Source of the DNA: Myxococcales bacterium
GTDB lineage: Bacteria > Myxococcota > Myxococcia > Myxococcales > Myxococcaceae
Assembly: GCA_020846875.1 (NCBI GenBank)
Contig: JADLDB010000037.1
Span: forward strand, 1 to 48,279
DNA: 48,279 bases
Reading direction: 5' to 3'
Part shown: piece after piece, positions 1-19,679 of the stretch
Layout: every line of letters begins with the position of its first letter
Numbering within the stretch: position 1 is the stretch's first letter
Notes under the pieces: generated by a model
The model's database searches: none
Told to the model about the DNA's origin: nothing
Seen by the model: only the letters and a program-made list of their open reading frames with translations
Position numbers and translations under genes: made by a program

Positions 1-1641
1 GGGCTCGACCTTCACCGGCCCGGCGGGGGCAGGCAGAGGCGGGCTGACGATCACCACGGGGTTGGGATCCGCCCCCTGGCGGTTCTTCAAGACGAGAAAG
101 GTGGCGGCGGAGCCCAGGACGATCGCCCCCACCAACACGGCGATCAACGGGCCTCTTGAGCCCCCGGCAGGAGCCGGCCGAGGCGGTGCGCCCGAGTGGA
201 GCGGCTGGTGGCCGTAGCCCGGCGACGGCTGCGGCTGGGGCCAGGACGGCTGCGGAGGAGGTGGCTGCGATCCCCAGCCCGGCGCCGGCTGCCCCGACCA
301 CGCCTGCCCCGGCGGCGCCACCTGCCAGCCCTGGGTCTGCGGGCCCCACTGGGAGGGGGGCTGGGGCTGGGGCGCCTGTGGCTGCGAGGGCCAGGGGTAG
401 GGCCCCGAGGGACTGGAGGCGTAGGGTGCCGGTTGGGGCGGCGGAGGGTGCCCCGGCGGCTGGGCCAGGTTGGGCGCGAAGAACGGCTCACCCGGCAGCG
501 TAGGCGAGGGGAGCGGCGGCACGGCCACCACGCCCGTCGGTATCGGCGCCCGGGCCGGCCTGGGTGTCAGCATCAGGATCTCCTCCGACGGCGGAGGCGT
601 GGCCAACACCGAGGTGGAGAGCTCGACGTCTGCCGCCTTCACGGTGGCCGCGGTGGGCGGAACTCCCAGGGGTGGGCCCATCGGTCCGGTCGGGGTGGGC
701 ACCGGCTGCGGAGGCGGCGGGGCCAGCTTCTGCACCACCTGCGCCAGTTGGTACTGCGACACCGGCGCGCCCGCGGTGACGATGAAGCGCTCGAGCTCGG
801 CCTGCAGCTCGCGGCAGTCCTGGTACCGCTGCTCCCGATCCTTGGCCAGCGCCTTGTCGATGACGGCCTGCAGGCCGTCGGGCATGTCCGGCCGCACCAC
901 ACAGGCGCGGATCGGCTCCTCGTACATGATGCCGCGGACGATCGCCGCCTCGTTGGAGGTGTCGAACGGCTTTCTGCCCGTCACCAGCTCGTGCAACACC
1001 ACGCCCAGGGCGAACACGTCGGCCCGCTTGTCCAGCGCGAGCGCGGTGAGCTGTTCCGGCGGCATGTACGCGAACTTCCCCTTCACCGTGCCCGTCTTGG
1101 TGAGGTGCGTCTGGTTGGCGGCCTTGGCGATCCCGAAGTCCACCACCTTCACCGAGCCGTTGCGCGCGATGAGGATGTTGTCGGGGCTCACGTCCCGGTG
1201 GACCAGGTTCATCGGCTGGCCGGTGGAGGGATCGACGAAGTCGTGCGCGAAGCCCAGGCCCTCGCACGCCAGGCTGACGATCTTCGCTGCCACCGCGAAG
1301 CCCAGCGGCTGGTTGGCCTCGAAGGCCTTGCGGAACAGGGCGCGCAGGTTCACCCCGTCGATGAACTCCATCACCAGGTAGAAGGTGGCCTCCGCCTGCC
1401 CGAAGTCGAACACCTGCACGATGTTCGGGTGGTTCAACTGGGCCGCCAGCCGCGCCTCCGAGAGGAACATGCTGATGAAGTTCTCCTCGTCGGCCAGGTG
1501 GGGAAGGATGCGCTTGACCACCACCTGCTTCTCGAAGCCCATCGGTCCGGCGGCGCGCGCCAGGTACACCTCGGCCATACCGCCCGCTGCGAGCTTGCGG
1601 ATCAGCTGGTACTTCCCGAGGACGGGCTGCGGGGACGTCAC
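1..1641 (-). CDS. Transmembrane Ser/Thr protein kinase (partial, C-terminus beyond window)
   Basis: Hanks-type kinase read on the minus strand from a GTG at 1641; no in-frame start lies close upstream. The first ~280 residues form the kinase domain: glycine loop [11 protein letters not shown] near residue 20, catalytic lysine in VVVKRI, catalytic loop HRDVSPDN near residue 147 and DFGIAK near residue 168. The K-to-S change after HRD is common in myxobacterial kinases. A long Pro/Gln-rich linker follows (about residues 300-485), then a transmembrane helix near 497-518 and the start of an extracytoplasmic part. The frame is open to base 1, so the sensor or output region is missing. It lies 59 bases after the OmpA-type gene on the same strand and may share its transcript. 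Substrate unknown; kinase identity is very secure. Confidence 0.93.
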
Positions 1642-1700
1642 GGTGTGCCAGTGTAGCGCAGGCTCCCGCGGGAAGGTTCCCCTCGGGCCCGATGTGCGTG

Positions 1701-3572
1701 TCACTCCTGCTCTTCGATCATGAACTCCACCCGCCGGTTTTTCGCCCGGCCGGCCGGCTTCTTGTTGCTCTCCAGGGGCTTGGTCTCGCCGAAGCCGACG
1801 GCCTTCATGCGGCTGGCTTCCACGCCGCGCTCGAGCAGCGCCCGCACCACGGATCCGGCGCGCCGCTCAGACAGCTCGAGGTTGTACGCGTCGTCGCCTT
1901 GATCGTCAGTGTGCCCCTCGATGCGGATCATCTTCAGCTTCTGGTTGGCGAGGATGGTGGAGGCGATCTCGTCGAGCAGCGGCCCCGAGTCGGGGAGGAT
2001 CACGTCCTTCCCGGTGGCGAAGTGGAGCTGCTTCTTGATCTCGATCTTCTCCTTCTTGAGCACCACCAGCGTCTGCTTGGGCACCGCCTTCAAGACGAAG
2101 TCCACCACCACGGTGTCGCCCGGCTGGCCGGTGATCCGCCGGCCCTGGGTGAGGAAGCCCGCCGCCGCAGCCTCCACCGTCAGCTCGCCCGCCGGCACGG
2201 TGAAGGAGAACTCTCCGTTCCCGTGGGTCTTCTGCGAGAGTGACGCCGACGGCGCGGCCACCGTGGCCACCACCGCCTTGTCCGCCTCGGACAGCACCGC
2301 GCCCCTCACCGTCATCGGCTTCGGCGGCTCCGGGGGCAGCGGGGTGAGCGCGGCGGACAGCACCAGCGGCTTGCCGGCCTCCACCACGCCGGCGGCCTCC
2401 CGCGGCTCGTAGCCCTGCTTGGTGGCGACCACCTTGAACGGGCCCAGCGCCACCTCCGGCACCTGGAAGCGCCCGTCGGCGTCGGCGAGGATCCGGTTGC
2501 GGCCCGGGATCTGGATCACCGCGTCCGGCACCGGCTTGCGCGTCGCCGAGTCCACCACCACGCCGGCCACCGTCGCCGTCTTCGGCGCCTCGGCCACCAG
2601 CTTCTCCTTCTCCACCACCACCTTCTCCACCGGCCCCGCGCGCGGGTCGACGTCCAACTGCCAGCCGAAGGCGAACTGCACCATCCACGGTGGGACGACG
2701 GCGACGTTCTCGCTCGACGGCCTGGTGAGGCCGATCTCCACCAGGCCGTCCACGTACAGGCCCAGCCACGGCATCACCCGGACGCCCGGCACCAGGCGCA
2801 TCGGCGGCGCGCCCCCGCCCAGCGGCACGTCCACCGCGTACTCGAGGAAGGGCCGAATGCCCACGCGCGCCACGTGCAGGCGGCCCTCCAGCGCCGCGCC
2901 CGCCCTCACCTGGTTGAAGGTGGTGATCTGCAGCGTGTACTCGCGGCTGCGATCGCCGGTGCCGTCGTCGAAGGCCGCCGAGTTGTCCAGGTAGAAGGAC
3001 GCGTTGGCGTGGAACACCAGCGGCGCGCCGTGGCGCGAGAAGTCGTAGGACAACAGCGCGCCGAAGCCGGGGCTCACCCCGCTCAGCGACGTCCAGATGG
3101 GCGGCGGCAGCCGCAGGTACAGCTCCCCCGCCAGCGCCAGGGCGCCGTCTGCCAGCAGGTACGTCCCCTTGGCGCGCAGGCCGAAGTCGTTCTGCAGGAA
3201 GTAGTGGCCCTGCGGTGAGGCGGACTGCTCCAGGTTGCCGTTGTGCAGCCGCGCGGCGATCTCCAGCCAGGGCAGGGGGCTGAAGGTGACGGCGAAGTCC
3301 ACCATCCGGTACTCGTCGGTGCCCGCCTCCTGGGTCAACTGCGGGGTGCGGAAGAAGCCGCCCCGCAGAGTGAAGGCGAGGTGCCTGGGCGCGAGGAAGG
3401 CGGATCGCACCAGGTCGAGGCCGGCGCCGCCCTGCCGGCTCTGCCCAAACTCGCCGGTGGGGGCGGCGGCCGACGGAGGCGCCAGGGCCGCCGGATCCTT
3501 CGGCTCCGCGCTCGCCCCCGAGGTCGCGACGGCGAGCGCCAGCAGTGTCAGCCGCGTCATGCGCGTCCTCAC
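1701..3572 (-). CDS. Outer-membrane barrel protein with two carboxypeptidase-regulatory-like domains and C-terminal OmpA domain
   Basis: About 620 residues. The GTG at 3572 overlaps the stop of the giant lipoprotein gene as GTGA; an ATG four codons later (3560) gives a cleaner signal peptide ([18 protein letters not shown]). Residues ~30-320 are rich in alternating aromatic/polar strands, consistent with a beta-barrel. Two Ig-like CarboxypepD_reg modules follow (about 330-410 and 420-495). The last ~115 residues are an OmpA/MotB peptidoglycan-binding domain with [16 protein letters not shown] and [18 protein letters not shown] and a late NRRVEF. The family role is to tie the outer membrane to peptidoglycan. 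Coupling to the upstream gene suggests it anchors or secretes that giant protein (inference). The architecture recalls the TraB partner of outer-membrane exchange, but I see no evidence of that function. Confidence 0.9.
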
Positions 3573-6500
3573 GGGGCCTGCAGGTAGATGTACGGCTGGC
3601 CGCAGTTGCCGATGAAGAGATCCGGCTTGGTGTCGGCGTTGGCCTGGAAGAGCATGATCTTCTCGGTGTACGCCGTGTCGTAGGGCAACGAGGACGTGGT
3701 GCGATCGCTGAAGAAGGCGGTGCCGGTGTTGATGAACAGGCGATCGCGCTGGTTGATCTGGTTCTGGTAGTTGCCGCCAGCCACCACCACGTCGAGATCG
3801 CCGTCGGCGTCCAGATCGGCCATGTCGCAGGAAGGCGAGCTGGTGGGCGAGGTGTTGCCGCTACAGGTGGCCTGGTACGGGTAGGGCTGCACCTCGCCCG
3901 GCCAGTTGGTGGCGGTGGTGTCGGCCAGCACGCCGGTGGCGTTGCCCAGCACCACCCGGTCGACGCCCGCCCCGCCCGTGCCCGCGTTGCACACGAAGAG
4001 ATCGGTGAAGGTGTCGTTGTTCATGTCGCCGGCGATCACCCCGCGGCCTTCGGCGCTGACGTTGGGCACGTTGGACGCGGTGACGTCGACGAAGAAGCCC
4101 GGCGCCACGCCGCCGCGGTTGAAGAGCATGCGGTTCCGGCCGTTGCCCACCACGTAGAGATCCACGTACGTGTCGCCGTTGAAGTCGCCGCTCGCCACTC
4201 GCCACGCGCTGAAGCCGTCACAGCCGCCCAGCACGTCGGGGAACTGCCCGTACGGAAGCTGACCCGAGACGTTGAAGAAGAAGCCGTTGCCGGTGTTGAG
4301 CAGCAGGTAGTGCCGGGCGTTGCTGCATGAGTACTCGTCGGTGCCGAAGTAGATGTCCAGGTACCCGTCCTTGTTGATGTCCACCAGGGCGATGGAGGTC
4401 GCGAACACCTGGATGGAGGGGATCCGCGGGTAGGTGCCGTCGGTGAAGATCCCCGAGCCGTTGTTGACGAAGTAGCGGATCGCGTTGTCGCGGGAGCCGC
4501 CTCCGGTGGCGCCCACGCCCGACGTGCCCACCACCAGGTCGAGGTCACCGTCGCCGTCCATGTCCCCCGTCTGCGCCGTGGTGCCGTTGAAGGGGAAGGC
4601 GGGGAACTTGAGCGCCGTCTCGTCGGTGAAGCCGCCCGCGCCGTCGTTGGTCCACAGGTGGGCGATGTTGGTGCGGCAGCTCGCCGGCTCCTGGTTGGTG
4701 ATCGCCTCGTAGATGGTGTACCGGCAGCCGGACACGCTAAAGACGTCTTCGTCCCCGTCGCGGTCGAAGTCGCCGTGCACCGCGTCCTGCACGCAGTAGC
4801 TCTGCTCGGGGATGGTGCGCATCGTGGAGTACTGCAGCACGCCGTTGGGACGCCCGAAGAGCAGGCGCGGCTGGCTGCCGTTGCCAGGCACCAGCACGTC
4901 GGGTCGGCCGTCGGAGTTCACGTCCCCCACCGCCCAGGTGCGCTCGGAGTCGAGCCGCGAAGGGATGCGGCTGGCTGTGCCCAGCGTGAAGAAGCCCGTC
5001 CCGTCATTCATGTACGCCTGCATCCGCGGATCGAGATCCAGGTGGTTCATCAGGAGATCGAGATCTCCGTCGAGGTCGAGATCGGTCGGCTTCACTCCAC
5101 CCACGGAGCCCACGACGGTGGAGTGGGCGACCCGCAGGGACGGAGGGGGATTGGGCAGCCGGTACACGTTCAAGCTGGCCGCCTCGTCCACGAAGCGCCC
5201 GGTGCCGTCGTTCTTCAGGTACTGGTACGTCTGCCCGTCGCGCACCACCACGATGTCCTTGATCCCGCTGCCGGGGCGCAATTCGGCCGTCGCGCAGCCC
5301 ACGCCCGCGCCGCCCACCACGGGGATGAGCGTGTTGGACAGGGTGAAGGTCCCCGCCGGGCCCTGCAGGAAGTAGTTGGCCTGCTGGTTCGACGCGTTCA
5401 CCACGAAGACGTCGTCGTCGCCGTCGCGATCCCAGTCGGCGATGCACACCGCGCGGGAGTCGTCGTTGACATTGGGCAGGCCGGTGCGCTGGGCGGTGAA
5501 GCTGCCGTTGCCGTTGTTCTTGTACCAGTAGTCGGCGCCGGCGATCGCCACGTACACGTCCGGTAGGCCGTCGGTGTTCAAGTCGCCCACCTCCGCGTCG
5601 CGGATCTGCACCCCGCAGCACGGCTGGCCGGGCAGGTTGCCTACGTCGGTGCGGGTGAACACGCCCAGCGGGTTGTTCCGGTAGAAGCTGGCCGGCGTGT
5701 ACCAGGTGCTGTCTCCCAGGGTGAAGACGTCCTTGGTGCCGTTGGCGTCGAAGTCGGCGATCACCACGTCCACCGTCGTCCGCCGCGCGTCTCCGGGGAA
5801 GCCGGGCAGGTTGGTGAAGGAGCCGGTGCCGTCGTTGACCCAGAGTTGATCGTTCCCGTCGCTGTCGCAGTTCACCTCCCAGCGCGAGAGGTACGCGTCG
5901 AGATCGCCGTCCCCGTCGTAGTCGAACAGATCCGCGCGATCGAAGCCGCGCTCGTTGGTGAGCGGCAGGCGCGCCGGCGGCGGCAGGAAAGCGACGCCCG
6001 CGTTGTAGTTGAAGGAGTTGGCCAGGGTGCTGTTCGCCCCGTCCGAGTTGGTGGCCGTCACCGACACCGTCCCCGCGGCGTGCGGAGGCGAGGTCACCAG
6101 CAGCGCGGACGGCCCCAGGTAGGTGACGTTGGTCGCCGCCACCCCGCCGAAGGTGACGGTGACCCCCACCTTGAAGCCCTGGCCCGAGACGAACACCGGC
6201 GTGCCGCCCGACGGCGGCCCCTCGTTGGGCGTGAGCGAGACGATCGCGATGCCGGGGAGATCGGCCGGCTGGAAGTAGGTGAAGCCGTTGGGCAGGGTGG
6301 CGAACTGCGTGTCGGGGTTGGTCACCGTCACGTTCACCGGGCCCACCGCCGCGCCCCCCGGCACCGTGGCGACGATCGCCGATGGGCTGATCACCGCGAC
6401 CGCGTTGGAGTTGGCCGCCCCGAAGCGCACCGAGGCGCCCGCCTGGAAGTTCCCCCCCTGGATCGTCACCTGCGTGCCGCCGGTGATCGGCCCGAAGGAC

Positions 6501-9500
6501 GGCGAGACGGCCGAGACGACCGGCGGAGGAATGGGGGCCAGGTAGGTGAAGCTGTTGTTCAACTGCCCGGACTGGCCGTCGGTGTTGATGACGCGCACCA
6601 CCACCGGCCCCGCCGTGCCCGGAGGCGTGTTGCAGATGATGGTGGTGCCGCCGGCCTGCACCTGAATGCTGAGGCAGTCGTTGGCGCCCACTTTCACCGT
6701 GGCGCCCGGCCGGAAGAAGGTGCCGGTCACGGTGATCAACGTGCCGCCCGCGGTGGAGCCGCTGGCCGGGGTGACCTGCGCCACGGTGGGCGCCGCCACG
6801 TAGGTGAAGGCGTTGTTGACGGTGACGTTCTGCCCGTCCGGGTTCTGCACCGTCACCGCCACCGGGCCGTCGCTCCCCGACGGCGTCACCGCGTCGATCT
6901 CCGTGGAAGACAGCACCGTCACGTTGGGCGAGGACGTAGGCCCGAAGCCGACGCTGGCGCCCACCTGGAAGCCGGTGCCGGCGATCCGCACCACCGTGCC
7001 GCCCACGCCTGGTCCGCTGGCCGGCGTCACCGAAGACACCGCCGGCGGCGGCACCACGTAGGTGACGGCCCCGTTGAGCGTCACCGACGCGCCGTCGGGG
7101 TTGGTCACCGTCACGTCCGCCGGGCCGATGGGGCCGGCCGGGCCCGCGCCGTCGATGCGGCCGGGGTTGATTTGCGTTGCCCCGGTGACCGGCGCGAGGC
7201 CCACGTAGGCGCGCGCCTGGCTGGCGAAGTTGGCGCCGTTGATCTGCATCGCCGTGCCGCCCAGGGTGCTGAGCTGCGCGGGCGTCACCGACGAGATCGA
7301 AGGCAGGGCGGTGATCAGCGAGGGGTCGACGTAGGTGAAGGCGTTGTCCAGCCGGTGCGAGGCGCCGTCCACGTTGATCGCGGTGAGGCTCACCGTGGTG
7401 CCCGCGGTGCCCGGAGGTGACACCACCACCGCCGTGTCGTCCGCTGCGGTGGCCGCGCGCGGCGCCGGGCTGTCACCGAAGAGGAAGCCCAAGCCTGGCA
7501 GGAAGTACCCGCCGGTGACGGTGGCCATGGTGCCGCCGGGCGCCGGGCCCTGGTTGGGGCGGATCTGCTCCACCGTGGGGACGGTCAACGCCTCGCCCAA
7601 ATCCAGCGCGTCGCCCGAGTTGGCCGCTGCGTCGGTGCCCACCTTCGCCACCGCGATGAGCGGCATGCCGTTGGTCGACCGCACCTCCACCCAGCCGCTC
7701 GACGCGCCCGCGCCCAGCGAGGAGAGCAGCAGGGACGCCGAGAAGTGCCCCTTCGAGGGGATCGTCACCTTGAGCGGCACGCCGCGCACGCTGCCCGCGT
7801 CGATCCGCAAGGTCATCTCGACGTTGGCCGCGGCGACCCCCACGTTCACCACCTGCAGCGCGGTGCGCGGATCCGCCACCGGCAGCAGCAGCCGCACGCC
7901 GCCTCCTGGCCGCGCGTTGTACAGCCGCACGTCGCTGGACAGCGTGTTGAGCGTCTGCGTGAAGGCCAACAGCCGGCGGTTGGCCGTGACCTGCACGTTG
8001 GACAGGGTCTGCGTGGGCGTGGTCCGCATCAGGATGGTCCGGGCCAGATCCGGCACCTGGACGAAGCCGTTCGCCGGCACCGACACGGTGCGGGTGCCCA
8101 GGCTCTGGCCGGCCGAGGTGCGCAGATCCAACGTGGCGTCGGCGGCCCCGGTGGCGTCGGTGTTCACCAGGTAGAAGGCGCTCGTCTCGGTGGACAGATC
8201 CGGCACCCACGCCAGCGTCTGCGAGGCCGCCGCGTCTCCGTAGGGGCGCGCCGCCATCGCGCCGCCCAGCCGTGCGTTGGAGTAGGTGCGGCCCACGGCG
8301 AGCAACTGGGCGCTGCTGCCGGCGATTTCCAGCGAGGCCACCGCGCCCGTCACCGTCATCGCGCCCAGCACGTCGTCGCTGGTGTACAGGCCGCCTGCGG
8401 GGATTGGCACCGCCTGCAGCCGGCCCTGCTGCATGCCCGTCGCGTCGCGCGCGGTGATGTCCACCGTCGCCGCCGCGGTGCCGACGTTCTGCACCGCCAG
8501 CCAGGTCTTGTAGGCGCCCACGCTGGACGCGTACGGCAACAGCAACCGGCTGGAGGCGCGCGCGGCGGTGGACGAGTGGAGGATGGACGTGTCATCGCTG
8601 ACCAGGTCCACGAGCGTCACCGAGGCCGTCACCGGTCCGTCCGCGGTCACCGCGACCGACGCGGTCCTCCCCGTGGCCGCCGAGGCCGCCTCGATGAACT
8701 GCAGCACGTTGGGCACCACCGCCCGGCCGAAGGCGGGGATCGCCGCGGTCAGCGCGCGCGAGCCCAGCTGGGTGCCCGCGGCGTCGAAGCTGGCCAGCGT
8801 CACCGTCACCGGCGCGGCCGAGAGGTTCACGATGGTGGCGTCGCTGGAGTACTGCGCGTCGTCCCGCGCCACCGGCAGGTACGCGGTGGGGAAGGTGGTC
8901 GCCCGCTGCGCCACCACGTCGATCAGATCGTACCGGAAGCCCTTCACCAGCCGCGCCGTCTGCATGTCGGGGTTGAGGATCTCCACGTCGAAGGCCCCGG
9001 GCGCGGTGCCGGCGGGGGTGAGGGCGTAGAGCAGGGTGTCGTTCACCACCCGGACGCTGGTGGCCTGCACCCCGCCGATGGTGACGGTGGCGTTGGCCTG
9101 GAAGCCGGTGCCGGTGACCACGATGGTGGTGCCGCCGCTGACGGGGCCGGCGCCGGGCCGCGCGAGGGCCAGCGAGGGCGGCGGGTTGTAGGCGAAGCCG
9201 CCGTCGAGCGTGCCAGACTGCCCGTCCGCGTTCACCACCCGCACGTCCACCGCCCCCAGCGGATGGGCCGGGGTGGTGCCGGTGATCACCGTGGCCGACG
9301 CCACCATCACGTTGGTCGCCTCGGCCTGGTCGAAGTACACACGCGCGCCGGCCGCGAAGGCGTTGCCGGCCAGGGTGAAGTTGGTGCCGCCGGTGGTGGG
9401 GCCCTGCGCGGGGAAGATCGTCGTCAGCTCAGGCCTCGCGGTGTACGCGAAGCCGTTCTGCAGCACCGCCGACTGCCCGTCGGGGTTGGTGATCGCCACG

Positions 9501-12193
9501 TTCACCACGCCGGAGGGCCCGGGCGGCGTCGTCGCGGTCGCGATGCCGGTGTTCTGCGTCGCCGCCGCCGAGGCCGAGTAGCCCCCGAAGAAGACCAGCA
9601 TGCCCGTCTGGAACCCGCTGCCCGTCAGCACCGTCTGGGTGCCGCCGGTGGCAAGGCCGTTGGCCGGGGTGACGGAGACCAGGATGGGCGAGGCCCCCAG
9701 CTGCGAAGGATCGACGTAGGTGAAGCCCTGCACCAACTGGCCGGACTGGCCGTCGGGGGTGATCACCGTCACGTCCACTGCGCCGGCCATGCCCGCCGGC
9801 GCCACCGCAGACAGCCGGGTGTCACTCATGATCGTCACTGCGGTGGACTGGGCCGACCCGAACAGCACGCGCGTGCCCTGGACGAAGTTGGTGCCGATGA
9901 GCAGCGCCATCGTCCCGCCGGTGGTGGGGCCGCGCGCGGGCGAGACGGCCGTCAGGGTGGGGGCGTTGCCCAGGGTGATGTCGGCGTAGGTGAGCCCGCC
10001 CACCAGCGTCGACGCCTGGCTGTCCGGGTTGGTGACGGTGACGTCCACCGCGCCCGCGGCGTGGGGCGGTACGGTGACGAAGAGCAGCGTGTCGTCAACG
10101 AAGCTGGTGGCCACCGCCGCGCCGGCGATGGACACGGTGGCACCGGCCAGGAAGCCCTTGCCCGAGAGCAGCACCTTGAGGCCGCCTCCCAGCGGCACGG
10201 TGTTGGGGGTGATCGACATGAGGGTGGGCGGTGACGCGTTGTAGGTGAAGCCGTTGGCCAGTCGGCCGCTCTGCCCGTCGGGGTTGGTGATCACCACGTC
10301 CACCGCGCCGGCCAGGTGCGGGCCGAAGGTGCCGTTGACCATGCCGGTGCCGATGGTGACGCCGCTGGCAGGGACGCCGCCGGCGAAGAGCAGCGCGCCC
10401 TGGGCCACGTTCTGCGCCGCCACCACCACGGCGGTGGAGTCCGCCGAGCCGCCGGCGTTGGGCGTGACGCCGGTGATCACCGGGGCCGGCCCCAGCGCGC
10501 GGGGATCGACGTACACGAAGCCCTGGTTCTGGGTGACCATCTGCCCGTCGACGTTCTGCACCCGCACGTCCACCGGCCCGAAGACGGTGCTGGCGGGGGT
10601 GATCGCGCTCAGCGTGGAGTTGTTCACCACGGTGACGGTGGTGGACTCGCCGGTGCCGAAGAAGACGCGGGCGCCCGCGGCGAAGCCTCCGCCGGTGATC
10701 AGCACCGTGGTGCCTCCCGTGGACGGCCCGAGGGCCGGCGTGACGGCGGCGATCGACGGCGTGGGGCCCCGCCGCGAGGGATCGAAGTACCAGAAGCCCA
10801 GGGGCAGGCTGGCGGTGCGGGTGCCCTGGGTGACGAGCACCTCCACCGGGCCGATCATCCCTGCCGGGGTGAGGCAGGAGATGGTGGCGCCCCCGACGAT
10901 CTGTACGCCGGTGCCGGGCTGGCCGCCGAAGGTGACCTCCGCGCCGGCCTCGAAGCCGGAGCCGATCACCGTCACCCGCGTGCCGCCGGCGATGGGGCCG
11001 AGCTCCGGCGTCACCCGGGCGATGGAGAAGGTGGGCGGCGGCGAGCCTCCCCAGGCCCACCCGTTGACCAGCGTGTCGGACTGGCCGTCGGCGTTCTCCA
11101 CGCGGACGTCCGCAGGCCCCACGGGGCCCTCGGGCGCGTTGCCGATCAGCGTGCGATCGTCGATCCGCCGCAGCCCGTCGAGGCTCTTCCCGGCGAAGGT
11201 GGCCACCGCACGCTCGGAGAAGTTGCGCCCGTCGATGGTCACCTCGGTTCCGCCGTCCGGGGGCCCGAAGTTGGGAGTCAGCTTCGAGATGACCGGACCT
11301 CCGACGTAGTAGTTGTAGCCGCGACGGAGGATGGAGGAGCGCCCGTCGGGGTTGGTGATCGCCACGTCCACCACGCCGGGAGCGCCAGGAGGCGTCGTCG
11401 CCGTGGCCGTCGTCCCCATCACCGTGACGCCCGAGGCGACCCGCCCGCCGAAGAAGATCACCGCACCGTGCTTGAAGCCCGTGCCGGCCAGCCCCACCAC
11501 CGTGCCGCCCAGCGTCGTCCCGGCCACCGGAGACACGGCGGAGAGCACCGGGGGAACGCCTTCATCCCCCGAGTACGCGAAGGCCGCGGCCAGCTTCGTC
11601 GACTGGCCGTCGGGGTTGGTGAGCTCCACGTCGGCAGCGCCCACGTCGCCGGCCGGCAGCGTGCCGGTCAGGGTGAGCGCGTCCACCACCACCACGTCCG
11701 AGGCGGGGGAGCGCCCGATGAAGAGGAGCGCGCCGTCCTGGAAGTCGGTGCCCGTCACCTGCGCCACCGTGCCGCCCGACGCCGGGCCCGTGTTGGGGCG
11801 GATGCTGGAGAGGATCGGCGCCTTCGCCGTGTCGGCGTCCTTCTCGTAGTACTCGAAGCCGTCGGTGAAGGTGGTGGACTGGCCTTCGGGGCTGGCCACC
11901 ACCACGTTCACCTTCCCCGCGCTTCCGGGCGGCGTCTCGACCGTCAACGTCGTCGAGTCCACCACCTTCACCGCCAGGGCGGCGTTGTCGCCGATCGACA
12001 CGGTCGTGCCGGGGCGGAAGTTGTTCCCCTTGATGATGGCCACCGTGTGTCCGTCGGTGGGGCCGCGGGGCGGCATGACGGCGCCGATCGACGGGACGTT
12101 AGTGCCTCCACTCGCCGCCGGGCTCTTGTCGCCGCAGGCCGAGATGAGCAGCGCCGCAAGAGCAGCGAGCGCAAGGACGCGAAGGGTACGCAT
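3569..12193 (-). CDS. Giant surface lipoprotein: 12 + 6 IPT/TIG repeats, unnamed 4-fold repeat, FG-GAP/VCBS C-terminus (2874 aa)
   Basis: The open frame extends upstream to 12997, but the ATG at 12193 is preceded by GGAGG seven bases away and begins a lipoprotein signal (MRTLRVLALAALAALLISAC), so I start there. Layout: IPT/TIG (Ig-like) repeats 1-12 at residues ~32-1085, each about 88 residues with SGGTxVTVTGTGF-like and TNPDGQSG-like strands; a ~450-residue spacer of four tandem ~110-residue modules; IPT repeats 13-18 at ~1538-2064; then ~800 residues of FG-GAP/VCBS units with Ca2+-binding loops such as DYDGDGDLD and DMDGDGDLD. IPT arrays are usually rigid stalks, and FG-GAP units form integrin-like propellers. 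I infer a long stalk with a calcium-dependent head, tethered to the membrane by its N-terminal cysteine. Ligand unknown. Confidence 0.95.
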   Translation of the reverse strand: MRTLRVLALAALAALLISACGDKSPAASGGTNVPSIGAVMPPRGPTDGHTVAIIKGNNFRPGTTVSIGDNAALAVKVVDSTTLTVETPPGSAGKVNVVVASPEGQSTTFTDGFEYYEKDADTAKAPILSSIRPNTGPASGGTVAQVTGTDFQDGALLFIGRSPASDVVVVDALTLTGTLPAGDVGAADVELTNPDGQSTKLAAAFAYSGDEGVPPVLSAVSPVAGTTLGGTVVGLAGTGFKHGAVIFFGGRVASGVTVMGTTATATTPPGAPGVVDVAITNPDGRSSILRRGYNYYVGGPVISKLTPNFGPPDGGTEVTIDGRNFSERAVATFAGKSLDGLRRIDDRTLIGNAPEGPVGPADVRVENADGQSDTLVNGWAWGGSPPPTFSIARVTPELGPIAGGTRVTVIGSGFEAGAEVTFGGQPGTGVQIVGGATISCLTPAGMIGPVEVLVTQGTRTASLPLGFWYFDPSRRGPTPSIAAVTPALGPSTGGTTVLITGGGFAAGARVFFGTGESTTVTVVNNSTLSAITPASTVFGPVDVRVQNVDGQMVTQNQGFVYVDPRALGPAPVITGVTPNAGGSADSTAVVVAAQNVAQGALLFAGGVPASGVTIGTGMVNGTFGPHLAGAVDVVITNPDGQSGRLANGFTYNASPPTLMSITPNTVPLGGGLKVLLSGKGFLAGATVSIAGAAVATSFVDDTLLFVTVPPHAAGAVDVTVTNPDSQASTLVGGLTYADITLGNAPTLTAVSPARGPTTGGTMALLIGTNFVQGTRVLFGSAQSTAVTIMSDTRLSAVAPAGMAGAVDVTVITPDGQSGQLVQGFTYVDPSQLGASPILVSVTPANGLATGGTQTVLTGSGFQTGMLVFFGGYSASAAATQNTGIATATTPPGPSGVVNVAITNPDGQSAVLQNGFAYTARPELTTIFPAQGPTTGGTNFTLAGNAFAAGARVYFDQAEATNVMVASATVITGTTPAHPLGAVDVRVVNADGQSGTLDGGFAYNPPPSLALARPGAGPVSGGTTIVVTGTGFQANATVTIGGVQATSVRVVNDTLLYALTPAGTAPGAFDVEILNPDMQTARLVKGFRYDLIDVVAQRATTFPTAYLPVARDDAQYSSDATIVNLSAAPVTVTLASFDAAGTQLGSRALTAAIPAFGRAVVPNVLQFIEAASAATGRTASVAVTADGPVTASVTLVDLVSDDTSILHSSTAARASSRLLLPYASSVGAYKTWLAVQNVGTAAATVDITARDATGMQQGRLQAVPIPAGGLYTSDDVLGAMTVTGAVASLEIAGSSAQLLAVGRTYSNARLGGAMAARPYGDAAASQTLAWVPDLSTETSAFYLVNTDATGAADATLDLRTSAGQSLGTRTVSVPANGFVQVPDLARTILMRTTPTQTLSNVQVTANRRLLAFTQTLNTLSSDVRLYNARPGGGVRLLLPVADPRTALQVVNVGVAAANVEMTLRIDAGSVRGVPLKVTIPSKGHFSASLLLSSLGAGASSGWVEVRSTNGMPLIAVAKVGTDAAANSGDALDLGEALTVPTVEQIRPNQGPAPGGTMATVTGGYFLPGLGFLFGDSPAPRAATAADDTAVVVSPPGTAGTTVSLTAINVDGASHRLDNAFTYVDPSLITALPSISSVTPAQLSTLGGTAMQINGANFASQARAYVGLAPVTGATQINPGRIDGAGPAGPIGPADVTVTNPDGASVTLNGAVTYVVPPPAVSSVTPASGPGVGGTVVRIAGTGFQVGASVGFGPTSSPNVTVLSSTEIDAVTPSGSDGPVAVTVQNPDGQNVTVNNAFTYVAAPTVAQVTPASGSTAGGTLITVTGTFFRPGATVKVGANDCLSIQVQAGGTTIICNTPPGTAGPVVVRVINTDGQSGQLNNSFTYLAPIPPPVVSAVSPSFGPITGGTQVTIQGGNFQAGASVRFGAANSNAVAVISPSAIVATVPGGAAVGPVNVTVTNPDTQFATLPNGFTYFQPADLPGIAIVSLTPNEGPPSGGTPVFVSGQGFKVGVTVTFGGVAATNVTYLGPSALLVTSPPHAAGTVSVTATNSDGANSTLANSFNYNAGVAFLPPPARLPLTNERGFDRADLFDYDGDGDLDAYLSRWEVNCDSDGNDQLWVNDGTGSFTNLPGFPGDARRTTVDVVIADFDANGTKDVFTLGDSTWYTPASFYRNNPLGVFTRTDVGNLPGQPCCGVQIRDAEVGDLNTDGLPDVYVAIAGADYWYKNNGNGSFTAQRTGLPNVNDDSRAVCIADWDRDGDDDVFVVNASNQQANYFLQGPAGTFTLSNTLIPVVGGAGVGCATAELRPGSGIKDIVVVRDGQTYQYLKNDGTGRFVDEAASLNVYRLPNPPPSLRVAHSTVVGSVGGVKPTDLDLDGDLDLLMNHLDLDPRMQAYMNDGTGFFTLGTASRIPSRLDSERTWAVGDVNSDGRPDVLVPGNGSQPRLLFGRPNGVLQYSTMRTIPEQSYCVQDAVHGDFDRDGDEDVFSVSGCRYTIYEAITNQEPASCRTNIAHLWTNDGAGGFTDETALKFPAFPFNGTTAQTGDMDGDGDLDLVVGTSGVGATGGGSRDNAIRYFVNNGSGIFTDGTYPRIPSIQVFATSIALVDINKDGYLDIYFGTDEYSCSNARHYLLLNTGNGFFFNVSGQLPYGQFPDVLGGCDGFSAWRVASGDFNGDTYVDLYVVGNGRNRMLFNRGGVAPGFFVDVTASNVPNVSAEGRGVIAGDMNNDTFTDLFVCNAGTGGAGVDRVVLGNATGVLADTTATNWPGEVQPYPYQATCSGNTSPTSSPSCDMADLDADGDLDVVVAGGNYQNQINQRDRLFINTGTAFFSDRTTSSLPYDTAYTEKIMLFQANADTKPDLFIGNCGQPYIYLQAP
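3572..5960 (-). repeat. About 14 FG-GAP/VCBS units (protein-level repeat) in the giant lipoprotein
   Basis: Roughly fourteen units of 50-65 residues, each ending in a Ca-loop consensus DxDxDGxxDxxV. Clear examples read DFDANGTKD, DLNTDGLPD, DWDRDGDDD, DLDLDGDLD, DVNSDGRPD, DFDRDGDED, DINKDGYLD, DFNGDTYVD, DMNNDTFTD and DLDADGDLD. One inner unit (LRPGSGIKD) and the last (QANADTKPD) are degenerate. Fourteen would fit two seven-bladed propellers; the exact count and fold are inference. Confidence 0.85.
6000..7580 (-). repeat. IPT/TIG repeat block 2 (six units)
   Basis: Six Ig-like IPT/TIG units of about 88 residues, repeats 13-18 of the protein. Each begins with a PxVxxVTPxxGPxxGGT-type strand and ends with an NPDG-type turn and an FTY strand. 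One unit holds a cysteine pair (NDCLSIQ and IICNTP) that could form a disulfide. The block joins the spacer modules to the FG-GAP region. Confidence 0.9.
7585..8935 (-). repeat. Four tandem ~110-residue modules of an unnamed type between the two IPT blocks
   Basis: The ~450 residues between IPT blocks are not IPT. By eye they divide into four similar units. Each starts near an (L)LPVA- or WVPD-like strand, continues with a pattern like WLAVQNVGTAAATVDIT (units: ATIVNLSAAPVTVTL, LAVQNVGTAAATVDI, FYLVNTDATGAADATL, LQVVNVGVAAANVEM), then a short G-x-x-x-G turn, a VPIPAGG-like strand and a closing hydrophobic strand. The pattern resembles secreted beta-sandwich repeats in other GC-rich bacteria, but I cannot assign a family name. 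Confidence 0.6.
8938..12097 (-). repeat. IPT/TIG repeat block 1 (twelve units)
   Basis: Twelve consecutive IPT/TIG units of ~85-92 residues follow the lipoprotein anchor. Conserved positions are the SGGT turn, the GxGF strand, the xxFGG strand and the TPPGxxGxVDVxxTNPDGQS segment. Several units are joined by a Y-V-D-P-x-x-L-G linker (after repeats 5, 6 and 9). The units have diverged in sequence, so this is an old expansion rather than a recent DNA duplication. Confidence 0.92.
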
Positions 12194-12271
12194 GGTGTTC
12201 CTCCCAGAAGGCGACTGAGGTACTGCTCCGTCCAAAGACGAAACGGCCCCCCGGCCGGCAAAAACAGGACG

Positions 12272-12296
12272 ATTGTATGGGAAAGCGGGCACCCGC
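12272..12296 (-). promoter_or_regulatory. Candidate -10 box and small hairpin upstream of the giant lipoprotein gene
   Basis: In the 128-base gap before the giant gene the minus strand reads TACAAT (12277-12272), a good -10 match. It follows a short GC hairpin, GCGGGTGCCCGC (12296-12285). No convincing -35 stands 16-18 bases upstream. The hairpin plus following TTTC could also be a weak terminator for the upstream lipoprotein gene. This gap is the only sizeable break between the two halves of the cluster. Confidence 0.3.
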
Positions 12297-12321
12297 GACC
12301 CAGGGAAAAATGTCGTGACCG

Positions 12322-14445
12322 CTACGGGCGGCAGATCACCTGGCCGTACAAGTCTGTGTCGGTCCCGCCGCGGTTGGCCTCGTACCCCACCTGCAGCACG
12401 CCTCCGTCGAGGGAAGCCACTCCCGGCGCGAACAGCCCGGTGACGCCGGCTGGCGTGTAGTCGATCACCGCACCTGCGTCGGCGCCCAGCGTGAGCCCGA
12501 CGAGACGCGGCTGGGGCAGCCCCTGGGCCCAGAAGGCGGCGCAGCCACCGGCGACGCTGGCAAGGGCGAGGTCGCTCGACTGGCCGGCGTATACGGAGGC
12601 GGCTTCGGGGAGGGCGGTGGCGAGGGCGTTGGGCAGCCAGCGCAGGGTGCTCTGGGAGTTGCCGACCGTACCGATCCACGCGCCCAGCACCTCTCCGGTG
12701 GGAGGGAAGACGGCCACGCGCACGTTGCGGGCCGTCTCGGCGGCGTCGGTCACCTCTCGCAGCGTGCCCAGCGGCGCGAGGCCAGTGCTGAAGGCCTGGA
12801 AGCGCACCGTGAAGCCCGTCTGGGTGATCCACCCCAACAGGAAGTCCCCGGTGGACGTTCGCCTCACCGCGTCGACGTCGAAGACGAGATCTCCTCCCGC
12901 GTCCGGCGAGGTCGTCAGCGTGGTGACGGGCGTCAACGTGTTGCCGGCCCCGTCGTAGACGGCGCCCTTCACTTGCAGCACGGGCGCCTCGATCCACGTC
13001 ACCAGGATCGGCGAGCTGGTGGGCGTGGCGCTGGCGATGCGGGGATCATTGTAGACGTTCACCAGCGAGGCGACGGTGTTGGTCCACGCCCGGGTGCCGG
13101 AGTCGGTCAGCCGCGCCACCTTGAGCCGCTTCACCCCGCCCACCTCTTCGATCCACGTCACGGCGAAGTCCTGGCCCACGCGGGCGATCGCCGGGCGAAT
13201 CGCCTCGGTGGCTGAGGGATCCGACACCGCCACCTCGTTGCCCTGTGGCCGGAGCTGCTCGTTGAAGCGGCGGAAGAAGACGCGCGAGACGCCGCCGCGC
13301 TGGTCGACGTACACCGCGCCGGAGCCGCCGCTGGCGGAGGTAGCCAGCCCGAGGTGGTTGGTGGCGGCGCTGGGGGTGATCACCAGGCTCGCTTCCTTCG
13401 AGACGTCGGCGCGCCCGTCGCAGTCATTGTCCAGGCCTTCGCAGCTCCCCTCCACCTCCTCGTAGCTGTTGCCGTAGGAGGTCCGGGTGCAGGGCGCCTC
13501 CCCGTTGCCGCCCACGCACACCCGGGTCGCGCCGGCGCACACGCCCTTCCACAGCTCGCACATGCCGAGGCGGATCAGCCCTCCGTCGGCCAGGCGATCG
13601 GCCACGTCGTCGCAGTCGTTGTCCTGCAGGTCGCACAGGGTCTCGCTGCTCTCGTAGTCCGGCCCGTACGAGAGCTGGGTGCAGGTCGTCTCGAAGGCCC
13701 CACCGACGCAGGCCGGGTGCTTCCCCGCGCACACGCCCTGCTGTTTGGCGCACAGGGAGGGGCTGACGACCTCGTCCGTCAGCCCGTCGCAGTCGTTGTC
13801 GCGGGTGTCGCAGCTGACCTCGTCGACCTCGTAGTTGGGCGCCTGGCAGACGCCGGGGGATCCCATGGTGCAGGCGCGCGTGTGGCCGTCGCAGACGCCG
13901 GTGGCCGGGCAAGCGCCGCCGGAGACCAGCTCGTCCGTCTGGCCGTCGCAGTCGTTGTCCCGATCGTCACAGCGTGTCTCGGTGGCCTCGTAGTCGGCGC
14001 CGTACTCGGCCGCGCCGCAGGTGGCCACGAAGCCGCCGTCCACGCAGGCCTTCACCGCGCCGGTGCACACCCCCTGGCTCTTCTCGCAGGCCGGGCCGGT
14101 GAGGATCCCGTCGTCCACTCGGGAGTTGCAGTCGTTGTCCTTGCCGTCGCAGGTCTCGGCGGTGGGCCCCACCGCCCCCTCGCAGGGTCCCCAGGTGCCG
14201 CCGGCGCAGTGCTGGGTGCCCTGGCGGCACTCGCCGGCGCTGGCGCCGCACATGCGCGAGTCGCCGCTGGTGCAGGTGCCGCCCACGGGCACCTTGCACA
14301 CGCCGCCCACGCACTCGTACCCGGGGGTGCAGGCGTGGCCGGCGTCGAGATCGCACTTCTTCTCCCCGAGATCCTTCAGCTCCGGTACGGAGCACGCAGC
14401 GCCGAGGAGGAAGGCGAGGCACCCGAGGCGCAGGCGAGACGTCAT
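12322..14445 (-). CDS. Cysteine-rich lipoprotein with five MopE-type metal-binding motifs
   Basis: 707 residues from the ATG at 14445. The signal ends in the lipobox LLGAAC. Residues ~25-345 are cysteine-rich and hold five copies of the motif annotated elsewhere as putative metal-binding (Cu-binding MopE family): GKDNDCNSRVDDG, DRDNDCDGQTDE, TRDNDCDGLTDE, LQDNDCDDVADR and GLDNDCDGRAD. Between them are GVC...ACxxG spacers. The C-terminal ~350 residues lack cysteines until the end and carry repeated short strands (VTWIEE, LVTWIEAP, LLGWITQ, GAWIGT) suggesting a beta-propeller. The ATG overlaps the upstream stop as ATGA, so the two are translationally coupled. Metal identity and function are unknown; surface location is inferred. 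Confidence 0.92.
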   Translation of the reverse strand: MTSRLRLGCLAFLLGAACSVPELKDLGEKKCDLDAGHACTPGYECVGGVCKVPVGGTCTSGDSRMCGASAGECRQGTQHCAGGTWGPCEGAVGPTAETCDGKDNDCNSRVDDGILTGPACEKSQGVCTGAVKACVDGGFVATCGAAEYGADYEATETRCDDRDNDCDGQTDELVSGGACPATGVCDGHTRACTMGSPGVCQAPNYEVDEVSCDTRDNDCDGLTDEVVSPSLCAKQQGVCAGKHPACVGGAFETTCTQLSYGPDYESSETLCDLQDNDCDDVADRLADGGLIRLGMCELWKGVCAGATRVCVGGNGEAPCTRTSYGNSYEEVEGSCEGLDNDCDGRADVSKEASLVITPSAATNHLGLATSASGGSGAVYVDQRGGVSRVFFRRFNEQLRPQGNEVAVSDPSATEAIRPAIARVGQDFAVTWIEEVGGVKRLKVARLTDSGTRAWTNTVASLVNVYNDPRIASATPTSSPILVTWIEAPVLQVKGAVYDGAGNTLTPVTTLTTSPDAGGDLVFDVDAVRRTSTGDFLLGWITQTGFTVRFQAFSTGLAPLGTLREVTDAAETARNVRVAVFPPTGEVLGAWIGTVGNSQSTLRWLPNALATALPEAASVYAGQSSDLALASVAGGCAAFWAQGLPQPRLVGLTLGADAGAVIDYTPAGVTGLFAPGVASLDGGVLQVGYEANRGGTDTDLYGQVICRP
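13405..14150 (-). repeat. Five tandem MopE-like DNDCDG repeats
   Basis: Protein-level repeat of ~55-65 residues in the lipoprotein above. Each unit pairs a C-D/E-xx-DNDC-(D/N) acidic loop with a downstream GVC/AC cysteine segment. In the family this motif is proposed to bind metal; the spacing here supports stacked, disulfide-braced loops. Confidence 0.85.
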
Positions 14446-15404
14446 GGAGTCGAGCCCACCGGCGCCGGCGAGGACATGCCCGAGGCCCAGGCGATGCCGG
14501 AGATGATCGCCCCCAGCGCCAGCCCGCCCGCGGTCCCGAAGAGGATGTTGGCGGTGGTGGCGTCGGTGGAGCCCTGCTGCAGGAGGCGCTGGGCGTCGTC
14601 CTGGTAGACGGCGTCCTTCGCTTGATCCGCCTTCGCCTGGGCCTGGGTGCCGAAGTACACGCCCACGCCTCCCGCGGCGAGCGCGGCGCCGGTGAAGGCG
14701 ATCGTCAGCGCCATGGGCACCTTGGAGGGCGGCCCGGCGAGGGCGGTGACGACGGGCGACTGTCGATCGGGCGGGGTGAGGCCTGGATCGGCGACGGGGC
14801 GATCGAAGGCCAGTACGGCGGCCTGGCGGCGCTCGGCCTCGAGGCGCTCCAGCTCCCTCAGCTTGGCCTCCGCTTCGGCCAGCAGGCGGGTCGCCTCGGC
14901 GGCGCGGGCCTCGGCTTCGAGCTTGTTGTTGTCGAGCTCGAGCCGCTGCGCCTCGCGCGCCTTGTCCTCGGCCTGGCGCTTCTTCGCTTCCGCCTCCAGC
15001 CGCTCGGCCTCGGCCTGCTTGCGCTCGGCCTCCTGCTTCGCGAGCAGCGGAGCGAGCTCCTTCTTCACCCGCGCACGCATCACGTCCACCTCGGCCTGCA
15101 CCTTGGGCGCGACCTTGAGGGGCAGGGGAGCGTCGGGGGTGAGCAACAGGCCGGCCTTGAAGGCCGCGCGCGCTTCGTCGAAGCGGTTCAAGTCGGCCAG
15201 CACCACGCCTTCGCACAGGTTCACCTTCGCCGACTCCTCCAGCGTCACCGCCGCCTTACGGGCGTTGCCCAGCGTCTCCAGGGCGCGCTCGTACTCGGTG
15301 CTCTCGTGGAGGCGCAGCGCCGCGTTGTAGTACTTCTGGAAGTCCGACTCCTGGGCGAGGCCGGGCGTGGAGATCAGCAGCGCCAGCGCGCACGTCAGTC
15401 GCAT
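14442..15404 (-). CDS. TPR / coiled-coil membrane protein
   Basis: 320 residues from the ATG at 15404, which starts a clean signal peptide (MRLTCALALLISTPGLAQ). An in-frame start 21 codons upstream would bury that signal. Residues ~20-105 are TPR-like helices (YYNAALRLHESTEYERALETL, LNRFDEARAAFKAGL). Residues ~120-215 are a long Ala/Glu/Arg/Lys coiled coil. Two hydrophobic helices follow (near 247-275 and 290-312). Such proteins are common in myxobacteria, and I do not know a specific function. Its stop overlaps the next gene's start (ATGA), and it is the first gene of the envelope cluster, so the promoter probably lies in the 76-base divergent gap 15405-15480. Confidence 0.9.
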   Translation of the reverse strand: MRLTCALALLISTPGLAQESDFQKYYNAALRLHESTEYERALETLGNARKAAVTLEESAKVNLCEGVVLADLNRFDEARAAFKAGLLLTPDAPLPLKVAPKVQAEVDVMRARVKKELAPLLAKQEAERKQAEAERLEAEAKKRQAEDKAREAQRLELDNNKLEAEARAAEATRLLAEAEAKLRELERLEAERRQAAVLAFDRPVADPGLTPPDRQSPVVTALAGPPSKVPMALTIAFTGAALAAGGVGVYFGTQAQAKADQAKDAVYQDDAQRLLQQGSTDATTANILFGTAGGLALGAIISGIAWASGMSSPAPVGSTP

Positions 15405-17400: not shown

Positions 17401-19599
17401 TCAGGGCCGCGAGAAGAACATCGCCCGGCCTTCCACCTCGCCGTTGAGCCCCAGGCCTTCGATGAAGGCGCCGTAGATCGACAGCTGGCGATCGGCCGAC
17501 ATCACCGAGACGGGCGGCTGGGGGACGCTGGTGCTCCCGCGGGGATCGAGGACGCGCAGGTTGGACACGGTGATCACCGGCTCCACGTACCAGCCCTTGG
17601 CGGTGCTGAGCGGTGACTGGAGCTCGAAGTCGAAGGGGATCGCCACCATCTTGTAGTCGCCGGTGTTGGTGATCCGCGGGCCCACGACGAAGGTCACCCA
17701 GGCCTTCCCTGACGGGAGGATCGCCACCGACGGCGAGAAGGCGAACCACACGTCGGTGCTGGGCGACTTCTGCGGGAAGAGCAGGGTGGTGTTCTGCTCG
17801 GAAGCGAAGACGCTCAAGTCTGGGCCCGAGCCCCACTGGCGCGCAGTGGGGTTCCACAGGGTCGTGTACACGGTGGAGATCGGCGTGGCGCCCGGGCCTG
17901 GCTCGACGGACACGAAGGCGCCCAGCGCGCGCTTGGATTTCGGATCGATCGCCACGGTGCTCCAGTCCTGGGCGTTGGCGGCGGGGAAGCCGACCAGGCT
18001 CTGGGGCTGGGTGAAGGCGCCCAGGGTCCCGTCCCGGTACACCCCGACGACCTCGGTGTCCTGCCCGCCGCCTGAGAGGGGGCGGATCGCGGTGAACGTG
18101 ACGTGCACCTGGCTGTCCGAGGGCAGGGTGGCGATCGTCGGGTGCGTCGGCGTGAAGTACGTAGCCGGATTGGACAGGAAGGCCTGGACGGGCGTGGAGA
18201 CGGACAGGCCGCTGGAGATGGTGCGGACCGCCAGCCCGTCGTCCTCCACCGTCACCATGATCGCTCCGCCGTTGGTCCAGGGGCCGATGTCACAGTCCTG
18301 GATGTTGCTGGTCACCCCGCCGTCGTCGAACGCCTCGACGGTGACCGCCGCCACGCCCCAGGTGCGCCCGAAGTCGCTGCTGCGCTGCACGCGCACCCCG
18401 CGGCCCACGTTGTAGCAGGTGAAGGTCAGCTTGCTGTCCGGGTTGTAGGTGGTGCGGGCGCGGGTGCCGACCGTGTCCAGCGGGTAGCTGCTGAGCGCGT
18501 CGTCCACGAAGTCCTTGCCGCGCCGGCTGGAGGCGTGGGCCACCAGTTGTCCTTCCTGCTCGAGGCTGACGAAGACGCGCGCGGTGTCGATGCCGGTGAT
18601 GGCCGGCCGGCGGCCGGGGAAGCCTCCCAGGTTCAGGTCGCTGGTGAAGGACGCCGGGCCGGAGGTGAGGGCCACTTCGTTGGAGATGAAAGGGAGGGCG
18701 CGGGTGAAGCCCGCGTCGGGGCGCTGGAAGCCCGCGTCGAAGCTGCCCGCGTCGCTGGTCATGCGGATGCAGGTGCCCGGCGCGAAGCACTGGTAGCCGG
18801 CGGGGCAGGTGGTGCTGCCCAGCATGCACGACTGGGTCTTGCACTGGCCGAGGTCGCAGACGCGGTCGGGCGGGCAGTCGGTGGACCGCAGGCACATGGC
18901 CATGCCCGCGTCGGAGGTGCTGCCGGCGTCCAGGTTCCCCGCGGCGATCTCTCCCTGCGAGTCGCGGCCCACCAGGAAGTACCGGTGCGAGGTGAGCCCG
19001 GAGTCGGGGATCAGGTGATCGCTGAGCGAGCCCGGGCCCAGATCCTGCTCCGGATCCCGCGCGCCCAGCGCGTCGCTGCCGATGAGCTGCCACACCGCCA
19101 CGTCGCCCGGCTGGCGCAGGGACCAGGCGAAGGCATAGTCGGTGCCGTCGGCCACGGCCACCAGCTCCACCCCGTTGCCCCCGTCGCTGATCGGCTGCGG
19201 CCCGGCGTCGACTTCCCCGCCGTCCATGCCGCCGTCCTCACCGGGGATCACCCCACCGAAGAAGGCGTCGAGGCAGGCCTGGGACAGCCCCGCGAGCTGA
19301 TCGGTGCAGCCGTTGAGCGCCAGCAGGTACACGTCCCGGCTGGCGCTGGTGCAGGCCTGGACCTGCTCGACGCAGTCGAGCGCCCGGGTCAGCTTCGCCT
19401 GATCGTCCGACGTGCACGCGGAGATCTTCATCGAGCAGCTGGACGCGCTGCCCAGCAGGGGACCCAGGGGGACGCCCGCGCAGTCGCCGGCCTTCTTCGA
19501 CAGATCGAGCTGCGCGTTGCGATCGCACAGGCTGGTGGAACACCCGGTGAGCGACAGGGCGAGGCCCGTGAGCGCCGCCACCACGAGGATGCATTTCAT
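17401..19599 (-). CDS. Surface lipoprotein with Asp-box (BNR/sialidase-like) beta-propeller
   Basis: 732 residues from the ATG at 19599 (AGGGA upstream). The signal ends in LALSLTGC, a lipobox. Residues ~20-130 are a cysteine-containing helical part (CVEQVQACTSASRDVYLLAL). Then comes a region of Asp/Ala/Gly linkers (GEDGGMDGGEVDAGPQ, SDAGSFDAGFQRPDAG) and a CxxxxxC knot segment (CPPDRVCDLGQC, CPAGYQCFAPGTC). The C-terminal ~420 residues contain an Asp-box, SSDFGRTW, diagnostic of BNR/sialidase-type propellers, and repeated VTFTxxR-type strands. No sialidase catalytic set is recognisable, so a binding role is likelier than hydrolysis. It lies 80 bases downstream of the IgGFc-binding-like lipoprotein gene on the same strand. 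Confidence 0.88.
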   Translation of the reverse strand: MKCILVVAALTGLALSLTGCSTSLCDRNAQLDLSKKAGDCAGVPLGPLLGSASSCSMKISACTSDDQAKLTRALDCVEQVQACTSASRDVYLLALNGCTDQLAGLSQACLDAFFGGVIPGEDGGMDGGEVDAGPQPISDGGNGVELVAVADGTDYAFAWSLRQPGDVAVWQLIGSDALGARDPEQDLGPGSLSDHLIPDSGLTSHRYFLVGRDSQGEIAAGNLDAGSTSDAGMAMCLRSTDCPPDRVCDLGQCKTQSCMLGSTTCPAGYQCFAPGTCIRMTSDAGSFDAGFQRPDAGFTRALPFISNEVALTSGPASFTSDLNLGGFPGRRPAITGIDTARVFVSLEQEGQLVAHASSRRGKDFVDDALSSYPLDTVGTRARTTYNPDSKLTFTCYNVGRGVRVQRSSDFGRTWGVAAVTVEAFDDGGVTSNIQDCDIGPWTNGGAIMVTVEDDGLAVRTISSGLSVSTPVQAFLSNPATYFTPTHPTIATLPSDSQVHVTFTAIRPLSGGGQDTEVVGVYRDGTLGAFTQPQSLVGFPAANAQDWSTVAIDPKSKRALGAFVSVEPGPGATPISTVYTTLWNPTARQWGSGPDLSVFASEQNTTLLFPQKSPSTDVWFAFSPSVAILPSGKAWVTFVVGPRITNTGDYKMVAIPFDFELQSPLSTAKGWYVEPVITVSNLRVLDPRGSTSVPQPPVSVMSADRQLSIYGAFIEGLGLNGEVEGRAMFFSRP

Positions 19600-19679
19600 C
19601 TCAGTCAGTCCCTTCGAGGCGTCTTGCCGGCCGAACAGCACGCCCCTCTAGCTCAGGGGCGCGGTGGGGGAAACCCTCG

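Follow-up and report, generated by a model that had tools for sequence, protein, structure and literature searches.

The window analysed here, the entire 48279-bp contig G000:C37 of a source genome of 7.06 Mb in 200 contigs, carries a real and conserved but rare set of three genes, coding for a giant lipoprotein (GIANT), an outer-membrane barrel protein with an OmpA domain (OMPA) and a Ser/Thr kinase. We put the chance at about one half that this set specifies a fibre for recognition or adhesion at the cell surface, which docks on a barrel anchored in the wall and has the kinase as its output. GIANT would be lipidated into the outer membrane through its N-terminus and displayed on the surface; its 18 IPT domains and middle region would form a stalk of fixed length, and its distal end would carry two Ca-dependent FG-GAP propellers for binding a ligand on another cell, on prey or on a polymer. 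OMPA would be the dedicated partner of GIANT, with a 12-strand barrel that docks the base of the fibre in the outer membrane, and transthyretin-like spacers and an OmpA domain that fasten it to peptidoglycan, in a manner resembling the hold of TraB on TraA. The kinase, encoded in the same translated block, probably reports on or regulates the load-bearing complex. This analysis adds three points to the first-pass annotation: the division of the locus into two blocks, the TraB-like partner and the stalk of fixed length.

Table 1. Genes and predicted features of the cluster (window coordinates)
Feature	Coordinates	Strand	Remarks
TPR/coiled-coil protein, exported	14442..15404	-	320 aa; two hydrophobic segments at C-terminus
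MopE-motif Cys-rich lipoprotein	12322..14445	-	707 aa; PF11617
Gap MopE/GIANT, divides cluster into two blocks	12194..12321	-	128 bp
GIANT lipoprotein	3569..12193	-	2874 aa; lipobox ISAC; lipid Cys20 at 12134-12136
GIANT stalk 1, 12 IPT/TIG repeats	8924..12106	-	aa 30-1090
GIANT middle region	7544..8911	-	aa 1095-1550 (~450 aa)
GIANT stalk 2, 6 IPT/TIG repeats	5954..7543	-	aa 1551-2080
GIANT head, ~14 FG-GAP blades	3572..5941	-	aa 2085-2874
OMPA (signal peptide, barrel, 2 CarboxypepD_reg, OmpA domain)	1701..3572	-	623 or 619 aa
OMPA predicted 12-strand barrel	2652..3416	-	aa 53-307
OMPA OmpA-like peptidoglycan-binding domain	1704..2045	-	aa 510-623
Ser/Thr kinase, GTG start at 1641	1..1641	-	C-terminus lost at contig end

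The first-pass annotation had listed five genes on one strand around a lipoprotein of 2874 residues, and both the reading frames and the Pfam matches bear this out, all five lying on the minus strand (Table 1). The matches were strong for TIG (E = 7e-179, 17 stretches), FG-GAP_3 (4e-63), OmpA (2.6e-23), CarboxypepD_reg (2e-20), Pkinase (3.4e-39) and MopE (2e-12; PF11617 at 47.7 bits, cut-off 27 bits), and weak for TPR in the 320-aa protein (E ~0.001, below the Pfam cut-off). The kinase, earlier described as a transmembrane protein, has the Pkinase domain and the membrane segment, but its gene is incomplete, running into the contig end. Both proposed stop/start overlaps are present: ATGA at 14442-14445, where the start of the MopE gene overlaps the stop of the TPR gene, and GTGA at 3569-3572, where the TGA stop of GIANT overlaps an in-frame GTG of OMPA. 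The GTGA contact is kept in the four genomes with a close GIANT. In each of them an in-frame ATG follows 9-18 nt past the GTG, and a GAGG-type ribosome site precedes this ATG in three of the four. The corresponding ATG in the window is at 3558-3560, and position 3560 may be the true start of OMPA, in which case the overlap may represent a coupling between stop codon and ribosome site. The gap between the MopE gene and GIANT measures 138 bp in locus L010 and 146 bp in L011. In the window, its predicted RNA fold was not significant (z 0.39), and the single terminator-like hairpin within it (12257-12244) occurs at the frequency expected by chance. A search for sigma-70 promoters found none, and terminator-like sites were at chance level.

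A scan of contigs together with whole-genome searches detected a close GIANT in 4 of the order's 145 genomes, namely the window genome, an Archangium sp. MAG (G050/G145, locus L009), G136/G146 (L010) and G132/G147 (L011), each pair being counted as one genome because contig coordinates and size agree. A phylum-wide search of 195 genomes returned the same set and one distant homolog (G038:C63, L133 5528-13192), a protein of 2554 aa with 19 IPT and 12 FG-GAP stretches and no neighbouring OMPA. Genome G085 has an OMPA (51% identity) without a GIANT. Thus, neither protein strictly needs the other; the two genes stay together, as had been anticipated, wherever a close GIANT is found, whereas the G038 and G085 genes stand alone. 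The order GIANT-OMPA-kinase is kept in all four genomes with a close GIANT, and its recurrence in three genomes besides the source, at 50-81% identity, means that it is not due to chance. The TPR and MopE genes, which had been expected to share this conservation, adjoin GIANT in only three of the four, where they precede it. In the Archangium MAG they lie on contigs other than that of GIANT, OMPA and the kinase; a different gene follows MopE there, and GIANT is preceded by unrelated DNA. A literature search for the domain combination of GIANT in myxobacteria found no relevant paper.

The kinase has a Pro-rich linker and one transmembrane segment (at about 88-150) and is 81% identical to its counterpart in L009. 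Its orthologs, 670-702 aa long, have a PEGA-like stretch at the C-terminal end (19.1 bits; Pfam PEGA cut-off 20.8), a part that the contig end removes from the window. The spacing between OMPA and the kinase gene is 59 bp in the window, 18-35 bp in two genomes and ~290 bp in L011. Since the source genome encodes ~132 kinase domains, a neighbouring kinase alone is weak evidence of function. The TPR orthologs (49-58% identical) lie beside MopE in three relatives, and the MopE lipoprotein has orthologs at 54-57% identity. TPR proteins of this type form a large family, represented in 78 of the 145 genomes of the order. One contig of the source genome itself (C117, L137 4227-8039) carries a kinase-TPR-lipoprotein row with a four-base overlap and without a GIANT, and three further loci combine kinase, TPR and/or MopE genes in varied order. 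Among 22 parsed TPR loci, a kinase homolog was found within ~1.5 kb in 8 and a MopE-like gene in 8; for the kinase this is more than chance would roughly predict (p ~3e-4, assuming a probability of 8.6%, 0.086, per locus). The TPR protein, the MopE lipoprotein and the kinase thus make up a recurrent myxobacterial toolkit, which the window combines with the GIANT-OMPA pair; TPR-MopE would be an accessory unit taken from it. With such combinations common elsewhere, the TPR and MopE genes apart in the Archangium MAG and a gap of 128-146 bp in the other three genomes, the earlier view of one coupled five-gene system is not supported, and we rejected a single operon as a fixed unit.

The same observations lend themselves to a further reduction, in which the cluster consists of two or three unrelated units: a GIANT-OMPA adhesin pair and, beside it, a toolkit kinase that has no role with GIANT. 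The toolkit sets that lack GIANT, the counts at the TPR loci and the separation seen in the Archangium MAG all fit this reading, which we regard as a real possibility while leaning against it, because the kinase gene closely follows OMPA in every genome with a close GIANT, including the Archangium MAG, in which TPR-MopE has moved.

The four GIANT orthologs share the residues CGDKSP immediately after the lipobox. N-terminal lipidation is therefore likely, as expected for this family of signals, although the conserved lipobox is silent on the face of the membrane at which the protein resides; we infer a location on the surface. The orthologs align over their full length, and the stalk is almost gap-free. 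When single IPT repeats were compared across species, the best match was the repeat in the same position in 216 of 216 comparisons, orthologous repeats being on average 71% identical and paralogous ones 36%, in a set of four close orthologs, two of which are closely related to each other. This one-to-one matching, together with the near absence of gaps, indicates that the number and order of the repeats, and hence the length of the stalk, are fixed. If extended, the stalk would measure about 70-90 nm by our own estimate. Fibrillar adhesins have been described as fast-evolving (PMC9210967). Strict conservation of 18 individual repeats is unusual in an adhesin stalk, and it argues that the length of the stalk or domains at specific positions matter. 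Stalk 2 matches the TIG domains of COE1 and plexin-A4 in sequence. The middle region could be assigned to no family (only DUF7282 matched, at E 0.03, below the cut-off) and is 55-59% conserved in the orthologs.

The head carries 12 DxDxDGxxD motifs, and Ca binding by these FG-GAP loops would follow from what is known of the family. The structure models were built from the window and three related-locus sequences only, so that those of the GIANT head and of OMPA are shallow. The head was modelled with low confidence (pLDDT 61) as ~14 blades, and probably consists of two seven-bladed propellers. Its last 418 residues (aa 2457-2874) superpose with VIA-align on the seven-bladed propellers of integrin alpha, CRTAC1, LGI1 and the bacterial lectins BP39L and CV39L (Z 24-29); Foldseek also matched this propeller to the GlcNAc lectins PVL and PAL. 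The four lectins could be taken to mean that the ligand of GIANT is a glycan, soluble or insoluble, used in feeding or in attachment to a matrix, and not another cell. We consider this rather unlikely: integrin alpha and other protein-binding propellers match equally well, the modelled superposition tells the fold of the head and not its ligand, and no hydrolase gene adjoins GIANT. As a separate observation, the distal half of the L009 GIANT (769-9333) is the more divergent one (58% versus 64%), beyond what stalk 1, OMPA or the kinase would lead one to expect. Head swapping was considered and rejected, as the unrooted four-taxon topology is unchanged, leaving only a longer branch.

OMPA has the order of parts found in TraB, an outer-membrane barrel (on a low-confidence model) followed by a C-terminal OmpA domain (PF00691). 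In the model of the protein (pLDDT 58), the best structural match of the barrel was 4rl8 (Z 19.0, rmsd 3.3, 229 residues), followed by FapF (Z 18.7), NalP (Z 18.7) and EspP, with COG4313 channels and KdgM porins scoring equally. Residues 420-497 superpose on transthyretin-like domains (Z 13.9, rmsd 1.3) and residues 500-623 on OmpA-like domains (Z 14). The OmpA domain matches YfiB (8.7e-24) and is the best-conserved part of the protein, with 77-92% identity among orthologs; its HTDD and LSxRRA motifs are invariant in all four. A conserved Asp and a conserved Arg of OmpA-like domains bind the peptidoglycan peptide, and OMPA would, as a member of this family, be held by the wall. In the linker, Pfam gave no TSP3 match, and two CarboxypepD_reg domains are found instead. 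Against the TraB profile (NCBIfam NF033763), OMPA scored 117-119 bits, through the OmpA domain only, with a cut-off of 700 bits; we therefore rejected OMPA as a true TraB. That OMPA is mainly a gate for export or assembly, passing or flipping GIANT to the surface with wall binding secondary, is unlikely: the FapF polypeptide transporter and the autotransporter translocators NalP and EspP are among the barrel matches and GIANT and OMPA form a dedicated gene pair, but 12-strand barrels are a common fold, the channels and porins score equally, no POTRA or helper domain was seen, and the GIANT homolog of G038 lacks OMPA.

A role for OMPA as docking partner is in keeping with its relatives. The source genome has a paralog 33% identical to OMPA, which with its partner gene occupies 19583-23374 of contig C74 (L096 13583-17374), and the paralog family is present in 49 of the 145 genomes of the order, a count that includes the OMPA orthologs. 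In all eight loci examined, the paralog adjoins a homologous protein of ~540 aa, with a lipobox visible in most; no family name was found for this pair, which is widespread in myxobacteria. In G085, a further OMPA-like gene is followed by one for a protein of more than 1763 aa with He_PIG, Ig and cadherin repeats, cut by the contig end (L104 10743-17865). Thus, OMPA-type proteins are repeatedly accompanied by a dedicated partner that is large or lipidated. The C74 pair resembles GIANT-OMPA in that a barrel-CarboxypepD_reg-OmpA protein stands beside a dedicated, mostly lipobox-bearing partner; it differs in its opposite gene order, in the low identity of the barrel protein and in the partner, which is small and unrelated to GIANT.

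The earlier description of a stalk-and-head lipoprotein with a wall-gripping barrel and a kinase is supported by the domains, the gene order in four of four genomes and the model structures. Its companion statement, that no such system had been described, needs qualifying: the parts do differ from those of known systems, but TraA/TraB, the outer-membrane exchange system of Myxococcus xanthus, is closely parallel in layout. There too, the gene for a stalk-and-head receptor precedes that for its wall-anchored partner, a barrel-linker-OmpA protein, with a four-base overlap (PMC3325183, PMC12045341); the overlap is between traA and traB (PMC3325183), and TraB, a barrel-TSP3-OmpA protein, associates 1:1 with TraA and anchors it to the wall (PMC12045341). 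TraA, however, has a variable domain, a Cys-rich stalk and MYXO-CTERM, whereas GIANT has an N-terminal lipid anchor, an IPT stalk and an FG-GAP head; the linker is TSP3 in TraB and transthyretin-like in OMPA, and the GIANT set has a kinase attached. GIANT contains only 18 cysteines, ends in its C-terminal propeller without a C-terminal anchor, and gave no profile match to the TraA-type families (Cys-rich repeats, PA14-like variable domain, MYXO-CTERM). The TIGR04201 Cys repeats were discarded as a marker for TraA, being present in 12 of 12 genomes and thus too common.

TIG has been described as a stalk domain of fibrillar adhesin-like proteins, which combine a long stalk of tandem domains with a distal globular head (PMC9210967). 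With 18 IPT repeats and an FG-GAP head GIANT fits this layout; unlike the class, it has a lipoprotein anchor, a C-terminal head, its own barrel-OmpA partner and individually conserved repeats. TasL of Vibrio fischeri, a lipoprotein of >380 kDa that mediates cell contact, is also giant and N-terminally anchored, with C-terminal adhesive repeats and an estimated reach of 70 nm (PMC9040878). It differs in being encoded in a T6SS2 island, in its fibronectin-like repeats and in that no barrel-OmpA partner has been reported; in the parts scanned around the GIANT set, no T6SS was recognised. In outline the GIANT set would work like TraAB and TasL, but it is not a member of TraAB. More speculatively, and in our view improbably, it could be a second myxobacterial contact receptor of the TraAB type built from other domains: a stalk of fixed length (~70-90 nm) would keep two outer membranes, or a cell and its prey, a set distance apart, a TraB-like barrel would serve as wall anchor, and its own membrane kinase would report contact. 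If the present reading is right, TraAB would be one instance of a general myxobacterial design that pairs a surface lipoprotein with a barrel-OmpA protein as its wall anchor, and a physically defined stalk with a linked kinase would make contact sensing genetically testable.

Two other features of the window were recorded. Upstream of the cluster lies an 860-aa lipoprotein gene with an IgGFc_binding domain (E 4e-64; 19680-22262, minus strand), adjoined by a gene for a 746-aa lipoprotein without a Pfam match (17401-19641); the two may form a further surface pair. A tRNA-SeC gene (anticodon tca; 46517-46612, minus strand) suggests selenoprotein synthesis in the source genome.
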